This document shows positions 1-44,182 of a DNA stretch of 54,232 nucleotides, in pieces. Source of the DNA: Acidithiobacillus ferrivorans (GTDB lineage: Bacteria; Pseudomonadota; Gammaproteobacteria; Acidithiobacillales; Acidithiobacillaceae). The DNA is taken from contig DYJM01000004.1 in the NCBI GenBank assembly GCA_020723125.1, forward strand, positions 1-54,232. Direction: 5' to 3'. The notes below the pieces were generated by a model, which did not search any database, was not told where the DNA came from, and saw only the letters and a program-made list of their open reading frames with translations. The translations under genes were made by a program, and so were the position numbers. Within the stretch, counting starts at the first letter, position 1; each line of letters begins with the position of its first letter.

Positions 1-65
1 GATCATTCCGAGCAACGCATACACTGCACTCCATAGCGTTTGATCCAGGCCTCCAACAAAATAAT

Positions 66-1046
66 CTAACCATTGGGCGCAAAAGCGTCAAAATGGATCT
101 GTGCATGGGGCACTCCATGAGAACGCAAGAGATCAATAGCCGCTTCTATCATGCCGGGTCCGCCACACAGATACACTTCATGATCCTGCCAGTGGCCGTT
201 GGCTGCCACCGTGGGCAGAAGACGGCGGGCACCTTTCCACTGCGTATCTTCGCCATCGGAAATGGTGGGTGTAAAAGTGAAATGGGCATACTGTCCGGCC
301 CATTGCTGCAAGGTTTCCAGATGATAAAAATCCCGCTGTTTTTTGGCGCCGTAAAAAAGATGAATCGGGCGGGTTTGCCCAATGTGCATACTTTCCTGAA
401 TGATGGCTTCAATGGGTGCCAACCCTGTTCCTGCGGCAATACAAAGCAAGGGCCGCGTATTATCCTGGAGGGCGAAGTCCCCTTGTGGCGGTCCGAGCGT
501 GATTGCGTCGCCGCATTGAGCCTGGTAGAAAAGCCAGCGACTGAACAGACCACCCGGAAGTTCGCGGATATGAAAAACCAACTCGCCCCGGTCCTGTGGA
601 GGGGTGGCCATGGAGTAAGAACGCCATTGATCTTCTTGTCCCGGCACGGCCATTCGTGCATATTGCCCGCTTCGATATGGATAGGGTTTTTCCGGCCGTA
701 AGCGCAGTTCCAGCACATTCCAGGCCAGTTTGCTCAACCCCACGATTTCAGCATTCCAGATGTCCCCGGAAATCACTTCAGCTCGCAGCCGCAGATTGCT
801 GCGCGGATAAAGCTTGCACAAAATGGCCATGCCCGCAGCGCGCTCTGTGGGTAACAAAAGCAGGGGCATGAAGGGTCCCTGCTCACTCTCTCCGGACAGG
901 ATGGTGCCCTTGCAATCTCCGCAGGAACCGCTGGCGCATCCATGTTTAATGGCCACATGATGGGCTTTTGCTGCTTCGACAATATTCTGGTTTTCATCCG
1001 CCTTGAAGCGGACACCGGAGGGCTCCAGACAAATTTCGTATTCCAT
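66..1046 (-). CDS. 2Fe-2S ferredoxin-type NAD(P)H/FAD oxidoreductase
   Basis: The 326-residue protein joins an N-terminal plant-type [2Fe-2S] ferredoxin domain (about 1-90; Cys37, Cys42, Cys45 and Cys77) to a ferredoxin-reductase module. The module shows the FAD signature RSYS at 142-145, a nucleotide-binding GTGLAP at 206-211 and CGGPGM near the C-terminus. This is the architecture of oxygenase reductases and CDP-6-deoxyglucoseen reductase-like proteins, which pass electrons from NAD(P)H through FAD to the cluster. GAGGTGAC lies 5-12 bases before the ATG. It lies 59 bases behind a globin gene on the same strand, so I infer it reduces that globin. The exact partner is not proven, and an oxygenase elsewhere in the genome is possible. 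Confidence 0.88.
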   Translation of the reverse strand: MEYEICLEPSGVRFKADENQNIVEAAKAHHVAIKHGCASGSCGDCKGTILSGESEQGPFMPLLLLPTERAAGMAILCKLYPRSNLRLRAEVISGDIWNAEIVGLSKLAWNVLELRLRPEKPYPYRSGQYARMAVPGQEDQWRSYSMATPPQDRGELVFHIRELPGGLFSRWLFYQAQCGDAITLGPPQGDFALQDNTRPLLCIAAGTGLAPIEAIIQESMHIGQTRPIHLFYGAKKQRDFYHLETLQQWAGQYAHFTFTPTISDGEDTQWKGARRLLPTVAANGHWQDHEVYLCGGPGMIEAAIDLLRSHGVPHAQIHFDAFAPNG

Positions 1047-1063
1047 GGCGTCACCTCATCAGC

Positions 1064-1092
1064 GTGGCGCAGCGGAAATCTCCCTGCGCCAC
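1064..1092 (-). other. Intercistronic hairpin between globin and reductase
   Basis: A perfect 9-base inverted repeat (GTGGCGCAG at 1064-1072, CTGCGCCAC at 1084-1092) with an 11-base loop fills most of the 59-base gap. No T-run follows on the minus strand, so it does not look like a terminator. An mRNA stability or processing element that sets the ratio of the two proteins is plausible. Confidence 0.55.
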
Positions 1093-1105
1093 CGGTATGT
1101 CTGAA

Positions 1106-1567
1106 TCACACAGCAGGAGGAACGTCGTCGATGGTAACCGGGACAAAACGGGAAGGAGCCATCGCTTCATAGGCGGCTTCAATACAGACCGTGGAAGCGA
1201 GGTTATAGGCCTCAATCCAGGATTCTGCCATTTCCTGAGTCCAGGCAGCGCCCAGAAAATGTTTCAGGGTATTGAGCAGGCTTTTACCGACGATGGGATA
1301 ATGTTCCGGACGCGTATCATATTTGATGTGTGAAATGCCCAGTTCCTTCAGATAAGGGACCAACACTTCCAGATTGTCGATAGTGGTCGCAATCAGAATG
1401 ACCGAATTGAAAAGCCGTATACGTTGTTCGGTCATGTCTCCCGGAAACATTTTCCGGACTTCCGGAAAATGCGTAAACATATAGTCATAAAAATGCTCGG
1501 CAACCTGAACACCCAGGTCTTTCACGGCTGCACCACTGGATTGGATCAGTTGAATATTGATGCTCAT
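1106..1567 (-). CDS. Single-domain haemoglobin (flavohaemoglobin/VHb-type globin)
   Basis: The 153-residue protein is a classical bacterial globin. Alignment by eye to E. coli Hmp and Vitreoscilla VHb places B10 at Tyr27 (HFYDYMF), E7 at Gln48 and the proximal F8 histidine at His80. The Tyr/Gln distal pair is typical of NO-dioxygenating or O2-binding members. It ends after the globin fold, with no fused reductase. Shine-Dalgarno AGGAG is weakly seen (taggagtcatcccta) before the ATG. The next gene is a 2Fe-2S/FAD/NAD(P)H reductase, so together they could act as a two-gene flavohaemoglobin. A sequence matching an FNR-type site lies upstream. It is related to, but clearly different from, the globin at 43645. 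Confidence 0.92.
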   Translation of the reverse strand: MSINIQLIQSSGAAVKDLGVQVAEHFYDYMFTHFPEVRKMFPGDMTEQRIRLFNSVILIATTIDNLEVLVPYLKELGISHIKYDTRPEHYPIVGKSLLNTLKHFLGAAWTQEMAESWIEAYNLASTVCIEAAYEAMAPSRFVPVTIDDVPPAV

Positions 1568-1656
1568 TAGGGATGACTCCTATATGTGTATTCGGTGGAT
1601 AGGCTGCGTAACACAGCCAGCGTTTCGGAGAATAAGGATTGGTTAATGGAATTTCC

Positions 1657-1670
1657 TTGATTTCGGTCAA
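1657..1670 (-). promoter_or_regulatory. FNR/DNR-type box upstream of globin operon
   Basis: TTGAT-TTCG-GTCAA matches the FNR-family consensus TTGAT-N4-ATCAA at 9 of 10 defined bases. On the minus strand TATTCT at 1635-1630 is a plausible -10, giving a start near 1623. The box centre (1663.5) is then about 40.5 bases upstream, the standard class II activator position. Oxygen-sensing (FNR) and NO-sensing (DNR/NNR) proteins share this site, so which one binds cannot be told. Confidence 0.6.
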
Positions 1671-1688
1671 GTTTACGAATGTTCCGCT

Positions 1689-2861
1689 TTAGCTGTTCTG
1701 GCGAATGATGACCTCCGCCCGCTGTTGAGCCCGCAGCAGTTCAGTGCGATATACCGTGCTTTCATAACCTTGGGTCGGGGTGGTGGTCAGGGGCTGGAGT
1801 ACGGAATGTTTTTGTCCGGGTTTCCAGTGCAGTTCTGCAATCATGGAGAGCCCCGGACGCAAGGGGTGATCCGCCAGTTCCTTGGCAGGTATGGCAATAC
1901 GTACCGGCACGCGTTCCACAATATGAATGTAATTTCCGGTGGCATTCTCGGGGGGCAGAATGCTGAATGCACTGCCGGCACCGGGAAGCAAACCCAGAAC
2001 GGTGCCGTGATAGTGCAGCTGATGGCCGTAGTAATAGCTGGTCAACTGAACGGCCTGTCCGGGGCGGACATGGCGCATGGCCGTTTCCTTGATGTTGGCC
2101 ACCACCCATAAGTCATTGAGCGGCACTACGGAAAACAATGGCTGACCGTTATGCACCTTTAATCCGGGGTAAGCAGCACGTTGCGCGATATAACCCGATA
2201 TGGGGGCACGGATGAGCCGCCGTTGCCAGTTAATGTCGGCTTTTTCAAAAGCCGCAGCGGCCTGGCGAACCAGAGGATTGTCAGATACCGTGGTGCCCGC
2301 GACAATGGCTTGCGCCCCTCGTAATTTTGCCTGAATTTCTGCAACCTGTGCTGCTGCGGAAATGATTTCATTTTGCGTATTTTCAATGCGAATCATGGAA
2401 ACCGCCCCGCTGGGCAGAGACTGTTGGTAGCGGCTCAAATCCATTTTCAGTTTTTGCAGTTCAGCCATTTGGGCCTGAACGCTTTGTTGCAATGCCTGGA
2501 CCCGTGCAAAATCCTGGCGGACCTGTCTGACTGTTGCCGCCAGATGGGCACCGGCCTGTTCCATGGCCAGTCGGGTCTGCGAACCCTGAAGGATTGCCAG
2601 AATCTGGCCGGCGTGAACATATTCCGTATTCTCCACCAGCACCTGCTTGACGGTGCCTGCCGACAAACTATCTACCGGCGTGATGTTGCCGGTGACGTAA
2701 GCATCATTGGTTTCAATCCAGTACTGGCCCCGCAAAAACCACCAGAGGATTCCCAATCCAGCAGCAATGAGCACAATAACGGCAACCAGCAGCAACAGCC
2801 TGCGCCGCTGTTTTTCCGGTGAGGCGTTGTCAGGTGCAGAGGAGGATGGTGTTGTACTCAT
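1689..2861 (-). CDS. emrA: EmrA/HlyD-family membrane fusion protein
   Basis: The 390-residue periplasmic adaptor of a tripartite efflux pump. A short cytoplasmic N-terminus precedes one membrane helix (about 20-43). The family motif follows (TNDAYVTGNITPV, about 52-64), then a lipoyl half-motif, an alpha-helical hairpin rich in Gln/Ala (about 90-190), the second lipoyl half (RAPISGYIAQRA) and a beta-barrel domain. It would bridge the inner-membrane MFS pump and the outer-membrane channel encoded just upstream. The start codon overlaps the stop of the NodT-like gene (ATGA), so the genes are translationally coupled. The symbol follows family resemblance; the exported substrate is unknown. Confidence 0.88.
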   Translation of the reverse strand: MSTTPSSSAPDNASPEKQRRRLLLLVAVIVLIAAGLGILWWFLRGQYWIETNDAYVTGNITPVDSLSAGTVKQVLVENTEYVHAGQILAILQGSQTRLAMEQAGAHLAATVRQVRQDFARVQALQQSVQAQMAELQKLKMDLSRYQQSLPSGAVSMIRIENTQNEIISAAAQVAEIQAKLRGAQAIVAGTTVSDNPLVRQAAAAFEKADINWQRRLIRAPISGYIAQRAAYPGLKVHNGQPLFSVVPLNDLWVVANIKETAMRHVRPGQAVQLTSYYYGHQLHYHGTVLGLLPGAGSAFSILPPENATGNYIHIVERVPVRIAIPAKELADHPLRPGLSMIAELHWKPGQKHSVLQPLTTTPTQGYESTVYRTELLRAQQRAEVIIRQNS

Positions 2862-4291
2862 GCTGGTTTTTTCTCCGCCGTATATCCGCCCCCCAGGGCA
2901 ACATTGAGCAGCACCCAGGATTGCGCATTGCGTATTTGCAAAGTGATTTGCTGGTTTTGCAGGTTGATTTCCTGAATCTGGCTGCGATAAACGCTTATCT
3001 TATTGGTGGTTCCCGATTGAAAAGCGGCCGTAGCCAGTGCGCTATCCTGGCTGGCGGCCTTGCTCATCCGGGTCTGTTCCTGTATCTGCTGACGATATTT
3101 TTGCCAGGCGGCCAAATGCCCGGCAATTTCACGCACCGCGCGGAGAATGGTATGGCGATAATGATCTTGTGCGGCCAGATAGAAGGCATTTTGCGCTTTG
3201 AGACGGGCACGGAGCTTTCCGCCTTCGAAAATGGGCAGGGATACCACCGGAGCAATGGCATGGGCCAGATTTCCGGGGCTGAATAAATCTCCCAGATCAA
3301 TACTGTTCCAACCGGCAAACAGGGCAATATTGACATCAGGGTAAAAAGCCGCGCGGGCAGCGCCGACCTGTTGCGCAGCGACTTCTATTTCCCAGCGTGC
3401 AGCGACCATATCAGGACGATGGCTGATCAGACGCAGAGGTAATTGACGGGGGATATTTATGGCGGAGAAATCCGGTAACGGTTCTACGCCAATATTCCGT
3501 CCCCAATCGGGTCCCTGCCCGGCCAAGGCGGCCAGGATGTAGCGCTGTTGCGCAATGGCTGCCCGCAGTTGGGCGACTGACTGCCGCGCACTGCCATAAG
3601 TTTCTGTCTGCGCATACATCAGCCGGGCATTGTTCAGACCATCCTGCCAACGTTGTTTTTCCAGTTGCAACAAGGATTTTTGCAGGTTTTCCAGATGCTC
3701 CGCCAGATGCAGTTGCTCTGTCTCGCCCGCCAGCAGAAAATAATGCCAAGCCAGTTGTTTCTCCAACTGTAATTTTGCCTCGGCATAATCCGCCTGATGA
3801 ACGCGTACTTGCCCTAAAGCTGCACGAACCTGATCACTGTCGCGCCCCCACAAGTCCAGATGATAACGGAGTTCCAGCGGGTTGATTTCGGTATAGGTAA
3901 AGCTTTTGCCGTTGGCCTGAAGGTGCAAACCATTCTGCGAAAAATGCTCCTGGGTGAGGGCCGCTCCCGCCGAAACTTGTGGGAGGAGGGCGGCCTGTTG
4001 TTCTGCAGTCATGGCTTTGGCGGCCAGAATACGGGTACTGGCAAGCTGCAGCGATGGGTTTTTGCGAAGGGCTACCTGAATCAGATGGTCAAGAGCAGGT
4101 ATGTGCGCCGCTTTCCACCACTGCTGTGCAGGCCATGGACCCGCCCTGATGCCATAGTGATGATCGGCCCGTGCCAGGGTCTGCTGAATTTGAGGGCTAT
4201 GGGCGAGATGTGCACCGGGAAGATGCCCAGGCAGGCGCGCACAGGCCGCAAGCAGTAACAATGGTAGCAGCAGAACAATGGATTTTTTCAT
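2858..4291 (-). CDS. NodT-type outer-membrane efflux lipoprotein
   Basis: I place the start at 4291, where ATG overlaps the TGA of the MFS gene (TGATG). The longer frame upstream lacks sense, while this start gives a clean lipoprotein signal: MKKS, a Leu-rich core and lipobox LAAC with Cys17. The 477-residue product shows OEP/TolC family features: NPSLQLASTRI near the N-terminus, long Gln/Ala-rich helices and the repeat signature RPDMVAARWEIEVAAQQVGAARAAFYPDV. It forms the outer-membrane channel of the pump made with the flanking MFS and EmrA-type proteins. Several family members carry out drug or organic acid efflux; the substrate is not deducible here. Confidence 0.88.
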   Translation of the reverse strand: MKKSIVLLLPLLLLAACARLPGHLPGAHLAHSPQIQQTLARADHHYGIRAGPWPAQQWWKAAHIPALDHLIQVALRKNPSLQLASTRILAAKAMTAEQQAALLPQVSAGAALTQEHFSQNGLHLQANGKSFTYTEINPLELRYHLDLWGRDSDQVRAALGQVRVHQADYAEAKLQLEKQLAWHYFLLAGETEQLHLAEHLENLQKSLLQLEKQRWQDGLNNARLMYAQTETYGSARQSVAQLRAAIAQQRYILAALAGQGPDWGRNIGVEPLPDFSAINIPRQLPLRLISHRPDMVAARWEIEVAAQQVGAARAAFYPDVNIALFAGWNSIDLGDLFSPGNLAHAIAPVVSLPIFEGGKLRARLKAQNAFYLAAQDHYRHTILRAVREIAGHLAAWQKYRQQIQEQTRMSKAASQDSALATAAFQSGTTNKISVYRSQIQEINLQNQQITLQIRNAQSWVLLNVALGGGYTAEKKPA

Positions 4292-5832
4292 CAGAGATCC
4301 ACCAGTTCTTCTATGGCGCGGCGTACCCGAATATCCGGTTCTGTGTAAACCACCGGTTTGCTGAACAGCATGAGACCCGCGCCGAGCAGGAATCCCCATG
4401 CAGCTATATAAAATATTTCGTTGAAGGCGAGCATGGCTGCCTGATGCGCAATGTAGTGGGCAGTGCGGATAGTGCTCACCGAGGGATTGAGTGTATAAAT
4501 CGTCGGACGATTACCTTCGGCAAGAAAATGCGCATGCAGAATCATTCTCCGGTCGAAAAGTGTGGCAATAAGGGGGATGCCCATAGCCTGTCCACAGAGC
4601 CGCAATACATTCAAAAAGGCGGTACCACGCATTTCGGCAGGGCCGGATAATCCGGACAAGGCAATGGCGATGATGGATGGAAATAAACTTCCCAGAAATA
4701 TTCCTACAAAAGCTTGTGGCCACAGTAATTCGCTGAAAGAGGCCGGATGATTGTAGGAGGAAACCCAAAAACTGGCGGCCGCAAATCCCAATAAGGAGAA
4801 AATAGCCAGGATACGTGCATCCAGATGATTGAGCAGGCGCTGGGTCAAGATAAAACTGATTTTCGAAAAAATCGCCATGGGTAATATCAACAGACCGACC
4901 ATCCACGCGCTGTAGCCCATGACCAATTGAAATCCCACCACATAAATGGCGATGCTGCCTTGAAAAAACAGGGCGGTGAAAAACAGGACCATACTTCCGA
5001 TCATGAAGTTACGTCGTTTCAGGAGGGTGAGATCGAGTAAGGGGTGCGTGCTAAACCATTCCCAAATCCCGAAAAAAATCAGTGTGATCAGGCTGATGCT
5101 GCCGAGAAGAATAATAGTCTGGGAGCGCCACCAACTGATGACTTCCCCGGCATTAAGGGCTGACTCCAAAGTGGCCAGGGCAATCAGCAGCATGAGCAGA
5201 CCCGGCCAGTCCAGAGGGGGATGGCGATGCTCCATTTCCCGTCCGAATAACAAGATCATAATGATGACAGCCACGCCGATGGCAATGGGTATATTCAGGT
5301 AAAACAGCCAGCGCCAACCGATACTGTCGGTAATCCAACCGCCGATAACCGGCCCCAGAGTAAACGGGGTGAGGGCAGCGACTCCCCACAGCCCCAAGCC
5401 AATATTACGGCGATGTGCCTGGTAATGGCGCAGGATAAGCTGCAAGGAGACCGGGATGGTCAATCCCCCCGAAAATCCCTGGAGCATACGGGCACTGAGA
5501 AAAGCATCATAATGACTGGTTTGCGCGCAGATGGCCGAAGCCAGGGCGAACGCCAAAAAGGCCCCTGCCAAAACCCGCATTTCCCCCCAACGTTGCAAAA
5601 ACCAGGGAGAAGTCGGAAAGGCCATGGCCATGGCCAGAAAAAAATCTGCCTGGGTCCAATCCGCAAAATCCGGGTTGACGCCCAAACTGCCGGCAACATG
5701 GGGTATCATGGGCAGATAGGCGCCAGTGTTGAACAACACCAGAAAATGTCCGATCCCAATCACCAGGTTCAGCAGCAATACCATGCCGGTGCTGAGTGGG
5801 GAAACTGCCGGAGCATTGTGTGAAAAAGCCAT
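4291..5832 (-). CDS. emrB: DHA2-family (EmrB/QacA-type) MFS efflux pump
   Basis: The 513-residue protein is strongly hydrophobic, with about 14 predicted membrane segments. The loop between helices 2 and 3 (QRWGEMRVLAGAF) resembles MFS motif A. GPVIGGWITDSIGWRWLFYLNIPIA is the drug-antiporter motif C region of DHA2 transporters. It would use proton motive force to expel a hydrophobic compound through the partners encoded downstream. It is the first gene of a three-gene coupled operon, an order (pump, channel, adaptor) that differs from E. coli emrAB. The divergent LysR gene and a palindromic site in the shared 109-base gap suggest LysR control. Confidence 0.88.
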   Translation of the reverse strand: MAFSHNAPAVSPLSTGMVLLLNLVIGIGHFLVLFNTGAYLPMIPHVAGSLGVNPDFADWTQADFFLAMAMAFPTSPWFLQRWGEMRVLAGAFLAFALASAICAQTSHYDAFLSARMLQGFSGGLTIPVSLQLILRHYQAHRRNIGLGLWGVAALTPFTLGPVIGGWITDSIGWRWLFYLNIPIAIGVAVIIMILLFGREMEHRHPPLDWPGLLMLLIALATLESALNAGEVISWWRSQTIILLGSISLITLIFFGIWEWFSTHPLLDLTLLKRRNFMIGSMVLFFTALFFQGSIAIYVVGFQLVMGYSAWMVGLLILPMAIFSKISFILTQRLLNHLDARILAIFSLLGFAAASFWVSSYNHPASFSELLWPQAFVGIFLGSLFPSIIAIALSGLSGPAEMRGTAFLNVLRLCGQAMGIPLIATLFDRRMILHAHFLAEGNRPTIYTLNPSVSTIRTAHYIAHQAAMLAFNEIFYIAAWGFLLGAGLMLFSKPVVYTEPDIRVRRAIEELVDL

Positions 5833-5910
5833 GAATGGGAAACCGCTTCTATGCTGATGAACTAAACGCGCCGATCATGCGGGGCATGAATACATAGGTC
5901 AAATTGGTAA

Positions 5911-5927
5911 TATAGATATAATCTATA
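5911..5927. promoter_or_regulatory. LysR-type operator palindrome
   Basis: TATAGAT-ATA-ATCTATA is a 7-base-arm perfect inverted repeat in the divergent emrB/lysR gap. It contains the T-N11-A core expected of LysR-family binding sites. A second palindrome, ATATCGATAT at 5932-5941, abuts the lysR start codon. Their position suggests autoregulation of the regulator together with control of the efflux operon. Confidence 0.55.
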
Positions 5928-5941
5928 GGGCATATCGATAT

Positions 5942-6886
5942 ATGGACACAGAACTTTTATTAACCTTTCTGACCGTGGCCAAAAGTGGCGGGATCAGTGC
6001 AGCAGCGCGCATACTTCATCGTAGCCAGCCGGCCGTCACGGAACGACTGCAGAAATTGAGCCAGATGGTCGGAGAACCCTTGACGATGCGTCATGGTCGC
6101 GGCATTCAACTGACCCCCGCCGGTGAGGCGCTTCTGACGACCGCCCAACGTATGCGTGAAGTCATCGACGAATTCGAGGATATAATCTTACGTCGCCAAC
6201 GCCTGCAAAGTGGGGTTTTACGCATTGCGGCGACTAATACCGTAGCCAACTATTTTTTACCGGAACGCCTGGTTGCTTTTCAGCAGCAATTTCCTGATGT
6301 AGAAATTCAGTTGCGCGGAGGGGTTATTGACTGGGAAAGCATTGCTTTGTCTGACTGGGATTTATTCTTTCTGGAAGGTGGTCTGGATCTGGAAGGCTTG
6401 CCTTCCTATTACGCCGTAACACCCTGGCTGGATGATGAAATCATGACGATATTTCCAGAAGGACACGCTTTGTTGCAACGCGATGTTCTGAATCTGGAAG
6501 ATCTGATGGCCTACCCTCTGATCTGGCGCGAATCGGGTTCCGGAATCCGCCGCTCCGTCGAAAAAGTTTTTCGGGATGCCGGGTTGAACCCCAGACAGTC
6601 TATTGAAGTGTCGGGTGTTGAGGCGGTTGGCGCTGCTGTGGATGCCGGGCTGGGTATCGGTTTTGTGACTGCCGCCGCCTTGCTCTGCCGAAAAGACTGG
6701 CGCGTACAGGCGCGGCGTCTGCCAGCGCCGCGTGGCATCCAGTGGACTTTATATATGGCCAGACCACAACCCGCCTATCAGTCTCACACCATACGCGCTT
6801 TTTTGGAATTTCTGGAAACCGCTGCGCCAGGACTTCCGTTGACAGGCCGATATGTGATCAATCCAGACGCTGAAATTCACCCATAA
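5942..6886 (+). CDS. LysR-family transcriptional regulator
   Basis: The 314-residue protein has an N-terminal winged helix-turn-helix (about 1-60; LLTFLTVAKSGGISAAARILHRSQPAVTERLQKLSQ) and a substrate-binding effector domain (about 90-295). Such proteins usually activate a divergent target when a small ligand binds the effector domain, and repress their own gene. The divergent target here is the tripartite efflux operon starting at 5832. The effector may therefore be the exported compound, which is inference. A large inverted repeat begins six bases after its stop codon. Confidence 0.92.
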   Translation: MDTELLLTFLTVAKSGGISAAARILHRSQPAVTERLQKLSQMVGEPLTMRHGRGIQLTPAGEALLTTAQRMREVIDEFEDIILRRQRLQSGVLRIAATNTVANYFLPERLVAFQQQFPDVEIQLRGGVIDWESIALSDWDLFFLEGGLDLEGLPSYYAVTPWLDDEIMTIFPEGHALLQRDVLNLEDLMAYPLIWRESGSGIRRSVEKVFRDAGLNPRQSIEVSGVEAVGAAVDAGLGIGFVTAAALLCRKDWRVQARRLPAPRGIQWTLYMARPQPAYQSHTIRAFLEFLETAAPGLPLTGRYVINPDAEIHP

Positions 6887-40736: not shown

Positions 40737-43063
<2,327 letters not shown>

Positions 43064-43644: not shown

Positions 43645-44106
43645 TCAACCTTTCAGTAACCGTTTCCATAAAGGTTTTTTGTTCGCCATTTCGTATTGCT
43701 CTGCTGCCGCAATCATCACGTCGGACAACAAGGTATAAGCATCAACCCAGGCTTGCTTCACCGGTTCGGTAAAGTCCTCAGCCAGTCCCTGTTCCAGAGC
43801 ATAAATCAAGGCTTCGCCGACATAGGTGTAGTGCTCACTTTGCACGCCGTAATTCACATGACTACGGGCGAGGTTCTGCGCTGCGGGGACGATGTCATCC
43901 AGGTTCTTTAATCCATTGACGACGGTATGAATCATGGCCATGAGTTTGCGCCCCTGTTCAACCATATCCCCTTTGAACATGGGTTTGACCTGAGGGGCGA
44001 TTTCGAATAGCCGGGCGTAAAACAACTCGGCGGCCTGATCCGAGATGGGTTTGACTTTACTGAAGCTGGATTGTACGAGATCAATTTGTTCTGCGCTGAG
44101 ACTCAT
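43645..44106 (-). CDS. Single-domain haemoglobin, second copy
   Basis: The start MSLSAEQIDL at 44106 has AAGGAGCC upstream. The ORF could run 19 codons further upstream through the leader hairpin. The 153-residue globin has B10 Tyr30, E7 Gln51 and proximal F8 His83 (RSHVNYGV). It differs greatly from the globin at 1106 but shares the distal Tyr/Gln pair. A basic tail (KKPLWKRLLKG) may contact membrane or DNA. No reductase gene is adjacent. It may bind O2 or NO. Its leader carries a terminator-like hairpin. Confidence 0.9.
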   Translation of the reverse strand: MSLSAEQIDLVQSSFSKVKPISDQAAELFYARLFEIAPQVKPMFKGDMVEQGRKLMAMIHTVVNGLKNLDDIVPAAQNLARSHVNYGVQSEHYTYVGEALIYALEQGLAEDFTEPVKQAWVDAYTLLSDVMIAAAEQYEMANKKPLWKRLLKG

Positions 44107-44133
44107 TTGGGGCTCCTTGAATGAATTAAACAA

Positions 44134-44182
44134 AAAGGCGCCAACGAAACCACAATCATGCATGGTTTCATTGGACGCCTTT
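44134..44182 (-). terminator. Terminator-like hairpin in the leader of the second globin gene
   Basis: In the minus-strand transcript the 20-base arm from 44182 to 44163 pairs with the 19-base arm from 44152 to 44134, around a 10-base loop. Only one mismatch and one bulge interrupt it. TTTTTGTTT follows directly. This has all features of an intrinsic terminator, yet it sits only 28 bases before the globin ATG. A complete promoter cannot fit between, so read-through must be allowed at times. Confidence 0.6.

Follow-up and report, generated by a model that had tools for sequence, protein, structure and literature searches.

Single-domain globins can destroy nitric oxide (NO) in vitro; re-reduction sets the limit on this activity in vivo, and for most of these globins the cognate reductase is not known (Smagghe et al., PMC2323109). 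A pairing that could supply such a reductase has been predicted in the genus Acidithiobacillus: Rodionov et al. 2005 describe a pair of dnr paralogues in A. ferrooxidans, of which one accompanies hcp-COG0543 and the other cgb-COG0543-COG0446; both operons carry a candidate DNR site, and two NO-detoxifying systems are predicted (PMC1274295). Here we analyse a pair of genes encoding a single-domain haemoglobin and a [2Fe-2S]-containing NAD(P)H reductase at one end of a 54,232-nucleotide stretch of DNA from Acidithiobacillus ferrivorans (the window), which spans the whole of contig C172 in a draft genome of the genus. We posit that the pair is probably a split NO dioxygenase whose transcription a DNR-like activator turns on in response to NO, a reading based on gene content, conserved residues and promoter architecture.

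The A. ferrooxidans cgb-COG0543-COG0446 operon comes from the same genus and has the same order of globin and COG0543-type reductase, a candidate DNR site upstream and a dnr paralogue in the cluster. Within the parts of that account available, COG0543 is named without mention of a [2Fe-2S] domain (PMC1274295); the third gene, COG0446, falls outside the window, where the contig ends, and nearer relatives have thioredoxin, hemerythrin and GcvH-like genes instead. An NO-detoxifying globin-reductase operon was already predicted in 2005 (PMC1274295) and the locus is hence not novel in kind; the present analysis adds co-inheritance across the whole order, the [2Fe-2S] domain, the detailed layout of the promoter and the match to published proteomics. 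No experimental test of the globin-reductase pair was found in the open literature searched.

Other described systems resemble the pair in part. Flavohaemoglobin (Hmp) has a homologous globin domain, the same distal pocket, a reductase partner with flavin adenine dinucleotide (FAD) and NAD domains, and the expected reaction, but here there are two polypeptides with an extra N-terminal [2Fe-2S] domain, the reductase is closer to MmoC/BenC, and Glu H23 is replaced by Ala. Identity with Hmp itself was rejected because the globin, FAD and NAD domains are not fused and lie in separate open reading frames. Campylobacter jejuni Cgb/NssR likewise combines a single-domain 3/3 globin, NO defence and a Crp/Fnr-family regulator, but the NssR site is TTAAC-N4-GTTAA and a dedicated reductase gene for Cgb is not noted in the available parts of the source (PMC1274295). 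In Legionella pneumophila a globin gene (glbN) is followed by a ferredoxin-reductase-type gene (lpg2536) under an NO-responsive regulator; this pair was proposed by Rodionov et al. (PMC1274295), repeated by Gardner (PMC3820574) and predicted to oxidise NO. It differs in that its globin is a truncated cyanoglobin rather than a 3/3 globin, and in being an NsrR and not a DNR target. Finally, hcp-hcr joins an NO-related acceptor to its own NADH reductase bearing FAD and [2Fe-2S], and hcp, too, is predicted to be under DNR control in A. ferrooxidans (PMC1274295); the acceptor, however, is Hcp and not a globin, and the hcp-linked reductase is 27% identical to that of the window.

Co-inheritance and structure of the globin-reductase pair

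The earlier note on this DNA, made from the sequence alone, had described separate globin and [2Fe-2S] reductase genes under an FNR-type box and proposed that the two proteins act together. Its factual claims on genes, domains, gap and box all hold: the open reading frames and Pfam domains place the reductase gene 59 bases downstream of the globin gene, both on the - strand (Table 1). The proposed partnership is in turn favoured by a co-occurrence survey of 31 Acidithiobacillales genomes, in which reductase orthologues were defined by 50% identity or more. Both genes occur in the same 28 genomes and neither in the other 3, an exact overlap with a chance of about 2e-4 if phylogeny is ignored, and the reductase lies directly downstream on the same strand in 39 of 40 globin copies. 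The three globin-free genomes carry only a reductase paralogue at about 30–36% identity, or a fragment thereof. Where a genome has two or three copies, globin and reductase stay paired, and it is the genes around them (thioredoxin, hemerythrin, GcvH-like, glycosylase and efflux) that differ; other copies sit on plasmids. Globin and reductase distance matrices are correlated (r = 0.855, Mantel 0/2000), in part due to shared ancestry. The proposed partnership of globin and reductase is thus strongly supported. Inherited, duplicated and absent jointly across the order, the two form a strong, directly testable candidate for a cognate globin-reductase pair and suggest an NO-handling route for iron- and sulfur-oxidising acidophiles without flavohaemoglobin; no fused flavohaemoglobin above the family cut-off was found in 57 relatives. 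NO readily arises from nitrite in acid with ferrous iron.

The globin was modelled with AlphaFold2 at a mean predicted local distance difference test score of 93.8, and the best-matching folds are Hell's Gate globin I, thermoglobin, Vitreoscilla haemoglobin (Vgb), flavohaemoglobins and the Campylobacter globin, which are also its closest solved relatives by sequence. Residues invariant in the family alignment are Tyr27 (B10), Gln48 (E7), Leu52 (E11), His80 (F8) and Tyr90 (G5), with helix names taken from an alignment with Vgb and an Hmp sequence. The protein therefore shows the features of a single-domain 3/3 globin, namely a 3/3 fold without a D helix, a proximal His, Tyr B10 and Gln E7. The proximal His-Tyr-Glu network is incomplete, in that Tyr90 is kept and Ala132 aligns with Glu137 of Vgb.

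The reductase has the architecture of oxygenase-type [2Fe-2S]/FAD reductases (MmoC/BenC-like), combining Fer2, FAD_binding_6 and NAD_binding_1 domains with CX4CX2CXnC ligands (C37-x4-C42-x2-C45-x31-C77). The four cluster cysteines and the RSYS, GTGL and YLCG motifs for FAD and NAD are invariant in 33 orthologues. It scores 193 bits against MmoC, 181 bits against BenC and 91.5 bits against the Hmp model. Assignment as MmoC or BenC proper was rejected, as the first two scores fall below the respective cut-offs of 500 and 430 and none of the clusters examined contained a recognisable oxygenase gene.

A consensus scan of the gap between the two genes found neither a promoter nor an intrinsic terminator. 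Every sampled globin-reductase gap holds a stem-loop (window, L002, L006, L008, L014, L020, L022–L024, L027 and L070), and these hairpins differ in sequence between lineages; possibly they direct mRNA processing that sets globin above reductase. The reductase gene ends 65 bases from the contig end (window 1–65). Because the contig ends just past the reductase, the operon tail of C172 is not visible in the window; the break is probably due to a repeated or variable region.

Table 1. Coordinates of the globin-reductase pair, its control elements and the adjoining genes in the window
Feature	Position	Strand	Evidence or remark
NAD(P)H reductase, 326 amino acids, N-terminal [2Fe-2S], FAD and NAD domains	66..1046	-	Pfam Fer2 + FAD_binding_6 + NAD_binding_1
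Intercistronic region with stable stem-loop between globin and reductase genes	1047..1105	-	-26.4 kcal/mol, z -2.6
Single-domain haemoglobin, Vitreoscilla/flavohaemoglobin-globin type, 153 amino acids; first gene of pair	1106..1567	-	Pfam Globin 1.4e-15
Predicted -10 element TATTCT	1629..1634	-	spacing places box centre at -41.5
FNR/DNR-type activator box TTGACCGAAATCAA	1657..1670	-	9/10 match to TTGAT-N4-ATCAA
EmrA-like adaptor	1689-2861	-	upstream efflux gene
NodT-family outer membrane factor	2858-4399	-	upstream efflux gene
EmrB-like MFS	4291-5832	-	upstream efflux gene
LysR-type regulator, divergent, beside efflux genes	5942..6886	+	conserved neighbour

Promoter architecture and the DNR-like regulator

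The FNR/DNR-type box claimed from the sequence is present with its 9/10 match; when the 300-bp upstream region was shuffled 2000 times, an equally good match arose in 8 of the shuffled sequences. Genome-wide there are only 9 instances of TTGAY-N4-RTCAA, most of them intragenic (a control pattern has 2), and the globin box is the only one found that is clearly a promoter site. When 33 non-identical Acidithiobacillales upstream regions are aligned on the box, TTGAY-N4-RTCAA continues into GGA, and an A at +24 and a T at +28 from the box, forming a TAnnCT-like -10, are invariant in 33/33; the box columns were chosen by pattern, the -10 columns were not. Because this invariant -10 spacing implies the start site, the box centre falls at -41.5, which bears out the class II position proposed earlier. 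Among Acidithiobacillales copies whose upstream region is complete, the box is conserved at a distance of 68–133 bp from the start codon in every one but L075, where it is partial (2 mismatches). A TTGAT-N4-ATCAA-like box placed for activation ahead of the operon is as expected of a DNR regulon.

Such a regulon also requires a DNR-family regulator, and relatives have a Crp/Fnr-family gene either in divergent orientation next to the globin gene or at the cluster end. The closest solved relatives of its product are an uncharacterised cyclic-nucleotide-binding-type protein and DNR (103–119 bits), with FNR at 46–47 bits. In the present genome a copy of the regulator stands at the end of contig C66 and is 97% identical to the cluster-linked regulator of L062. 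Synteny with L062 and with A. concretivorus L123 suggests that C66 and C172 adjoin, which would place the regulator near the operon here as well.

Proposed mechanism and alternatives

The genes and their domains, the haem-pocket residues, the joint presence and absence of the pair across the order, the conserved box with its -10 and the associated DNR-like gene are all observed; for the split NO dioxygenase we infer catalysis, electron transfer between the two proteins and NO as the signal. The ferrous single-domain globin would bind O2, convert NO to nitrate and turn ferric, and the [2Fe-2S]/FAD reductase would draw electrons from NAD(P)H and re-reduce it, as the fused C-terminal domain does in flavohaemoglobin. 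The DNR-like Crp/Fnr regulator beside the cluster would sense NO, bind the box at -41.5 and activate transcription. More tentatively, electrons may reach the haem via the [2Fe-2S] cluster of a separate oxygenase-type reductase and not directly from FAD, in what could be a dedicated reductase of a 3/3 globin and a duplicated, sometimes plasmid-borne nitrosative-stress module of acidophiles.

Several observations weigh against a split NO dioxygenase. Position H23, a proximal Glu in flavohaemoglobins and Vgb, is occupied by Ala132 in this globin and by Ala in all aligned family members, although Glu H23 is not a requirement for every single-domain globin. One lone globin copy, L047 of A. ferriphilus, has other DNA downstream, and globins 59–69% identical to that of the window, with no adjacent reductase, are held by Nitrospirota (L052–L057, 'Leptospirillum-type' by our own label and Nitrospirae in the records) and by Methylacidiphilaceae contig L050. 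Searches for the reductase returned only weak matches in the globin-bearing Nitrospirota genomes, at about 23–33% identity with the best spanning just the FAD/NAD domains, and no match in the Methylacidiphilaceae genome. The globin can therefore exist without this reductase, and the presence of the same globin clade in acidophile-associated Nitrospirota and one Methylacidiphilaceae contig suggests transfer among acidophiles. Lastly, the closest characterised reductases (MmoC, BenC, carbazole dioxygenase reductase and P450 reductase) serve oxygenases. Reductase homologues that consistently sit with an oxygenase instead had been named in the earlier note as refuting the partnership; the orthologues do not, whereas these closest characterised homologues do serve oxygenases.

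An NO dioxygenase and an O2-scavenging system had both been put forward; the former is favoured by the DNR-like regulator, the DNR-type box and the hcp, NnrS and hemerythrin genes near a plasmid copy of the pair. O2 scavenging or buffering, in which the reductase would keep the globin ferrous to bind or consume O2 and so curb the formation of reactive oxygen, with FNR in control when O2 is low, is unlikely. It would accord with the presence of a [4Fe-4S] FNR in A. ferrooxidans (PMC6659574) and with the near identity of FNR and DNR boxes; however, the linked regulator is DNR-like with a far lower score against FNR, the plasmid copy clusters with NO-stress genes, and a sole clear promoter box in the genome suits a dedicated regulator better than global FNR.

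We consider it rather improbable that the reduced globin acts mainly as an NO reductase or denitrosylase at low O2, or in a repair module with hemerythrin and thioredoxin, and not as a dioxygenase. In favour of this, the box belongs to the family recognised by NO and low-O2 regulators, many genomes have hemerythrin, thioredoxin-like and lipoyl-carrier (GcvH-like) genes after the pair, and Campylobacter Cgb has been proposed to act by a denitrosylase route, going by a title cited in PMC3820574. The distal pocket, Tyr-Gln-Leu, is however of the NO dioxygenase type. Acidithiobacillus also leads a largely aerobic life, which argues against chemistry confined to low O2.

That the reductase is a mere neighbour of the globin and serves another acceptor, such as an oxygenase, hemerythrin or other redox protein, would fit its oxygenase-serving characterised relatives and the globin homologues without a reductase, but is very improbable given that no oxygenase partner was recognised in the neighbourhoods examined and that the pairing persists in 39/40 copies while other neighbours come and go.

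Neighbouring genes and related clusters

An EmrA/EmrB/outer-membrane efflux set with its LysR regulator (1689–6886) is conserved upstream of the globin gene in many Acidithiobacillus genomes and plasmids, and the box promoter separates these efflux genes from the globin. In an A. ferrooxidans plasmid copy the pair is followed by genes for a thioredoxin-like protein, two hemerythrins, a GcvH-like protein and DUF2249; beyond these lie genes for a Crp/Fnr protein, hcp, an hcr-like reductase and NnrS. The other genes of this plasmid cluster are, like hcp and nnrS, typical of nitrosative stress. Rodionov et al. 2005 (PMC1274295) state this for hcp and nnrS.

In many Acidithiobacillus clusters the genes after the pair encode a hemerythrin and a GcvH-like protein of lipoyl-carrier type with CMRCSE at its end (e.g. 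L059 13546–14447; L062 11444–12357). In A. concretivorus L123 (3046–3105) the DNA after the reductase gene matches the GcvH-like gene over its final 20 residues alone and resembles a deletion scar. Orthologues of the relatives' hemerythrin and DNA glycosylase were not found in the present genome.

In L072 the order is globin, reductase and pyridine-nucleotide-disulfide reductase, which fits AFE_0861-0860-0859 in A. ferrooxidans on a presumptive locus-tag assignment. Proteomics of pyrite biofilm cells found AFE_0861 to be the most increased protein (log2 6.9), with AFE_0859 also increased (PMC6450195).

The same pair was not recovered across the phylum, as the matches examined outside Acidithiobacillales were second-type single-domain globins or fused flavohaemoglobins. 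The window itself carries a second single-domain globin like those matches (43645–44163, - strand), which is 37% identical to the first and 41–57% identical to its relatives elsewhere in the phylum. Its gene lies near one encoding a catalase-peroxidase (40766–43063, + strand).
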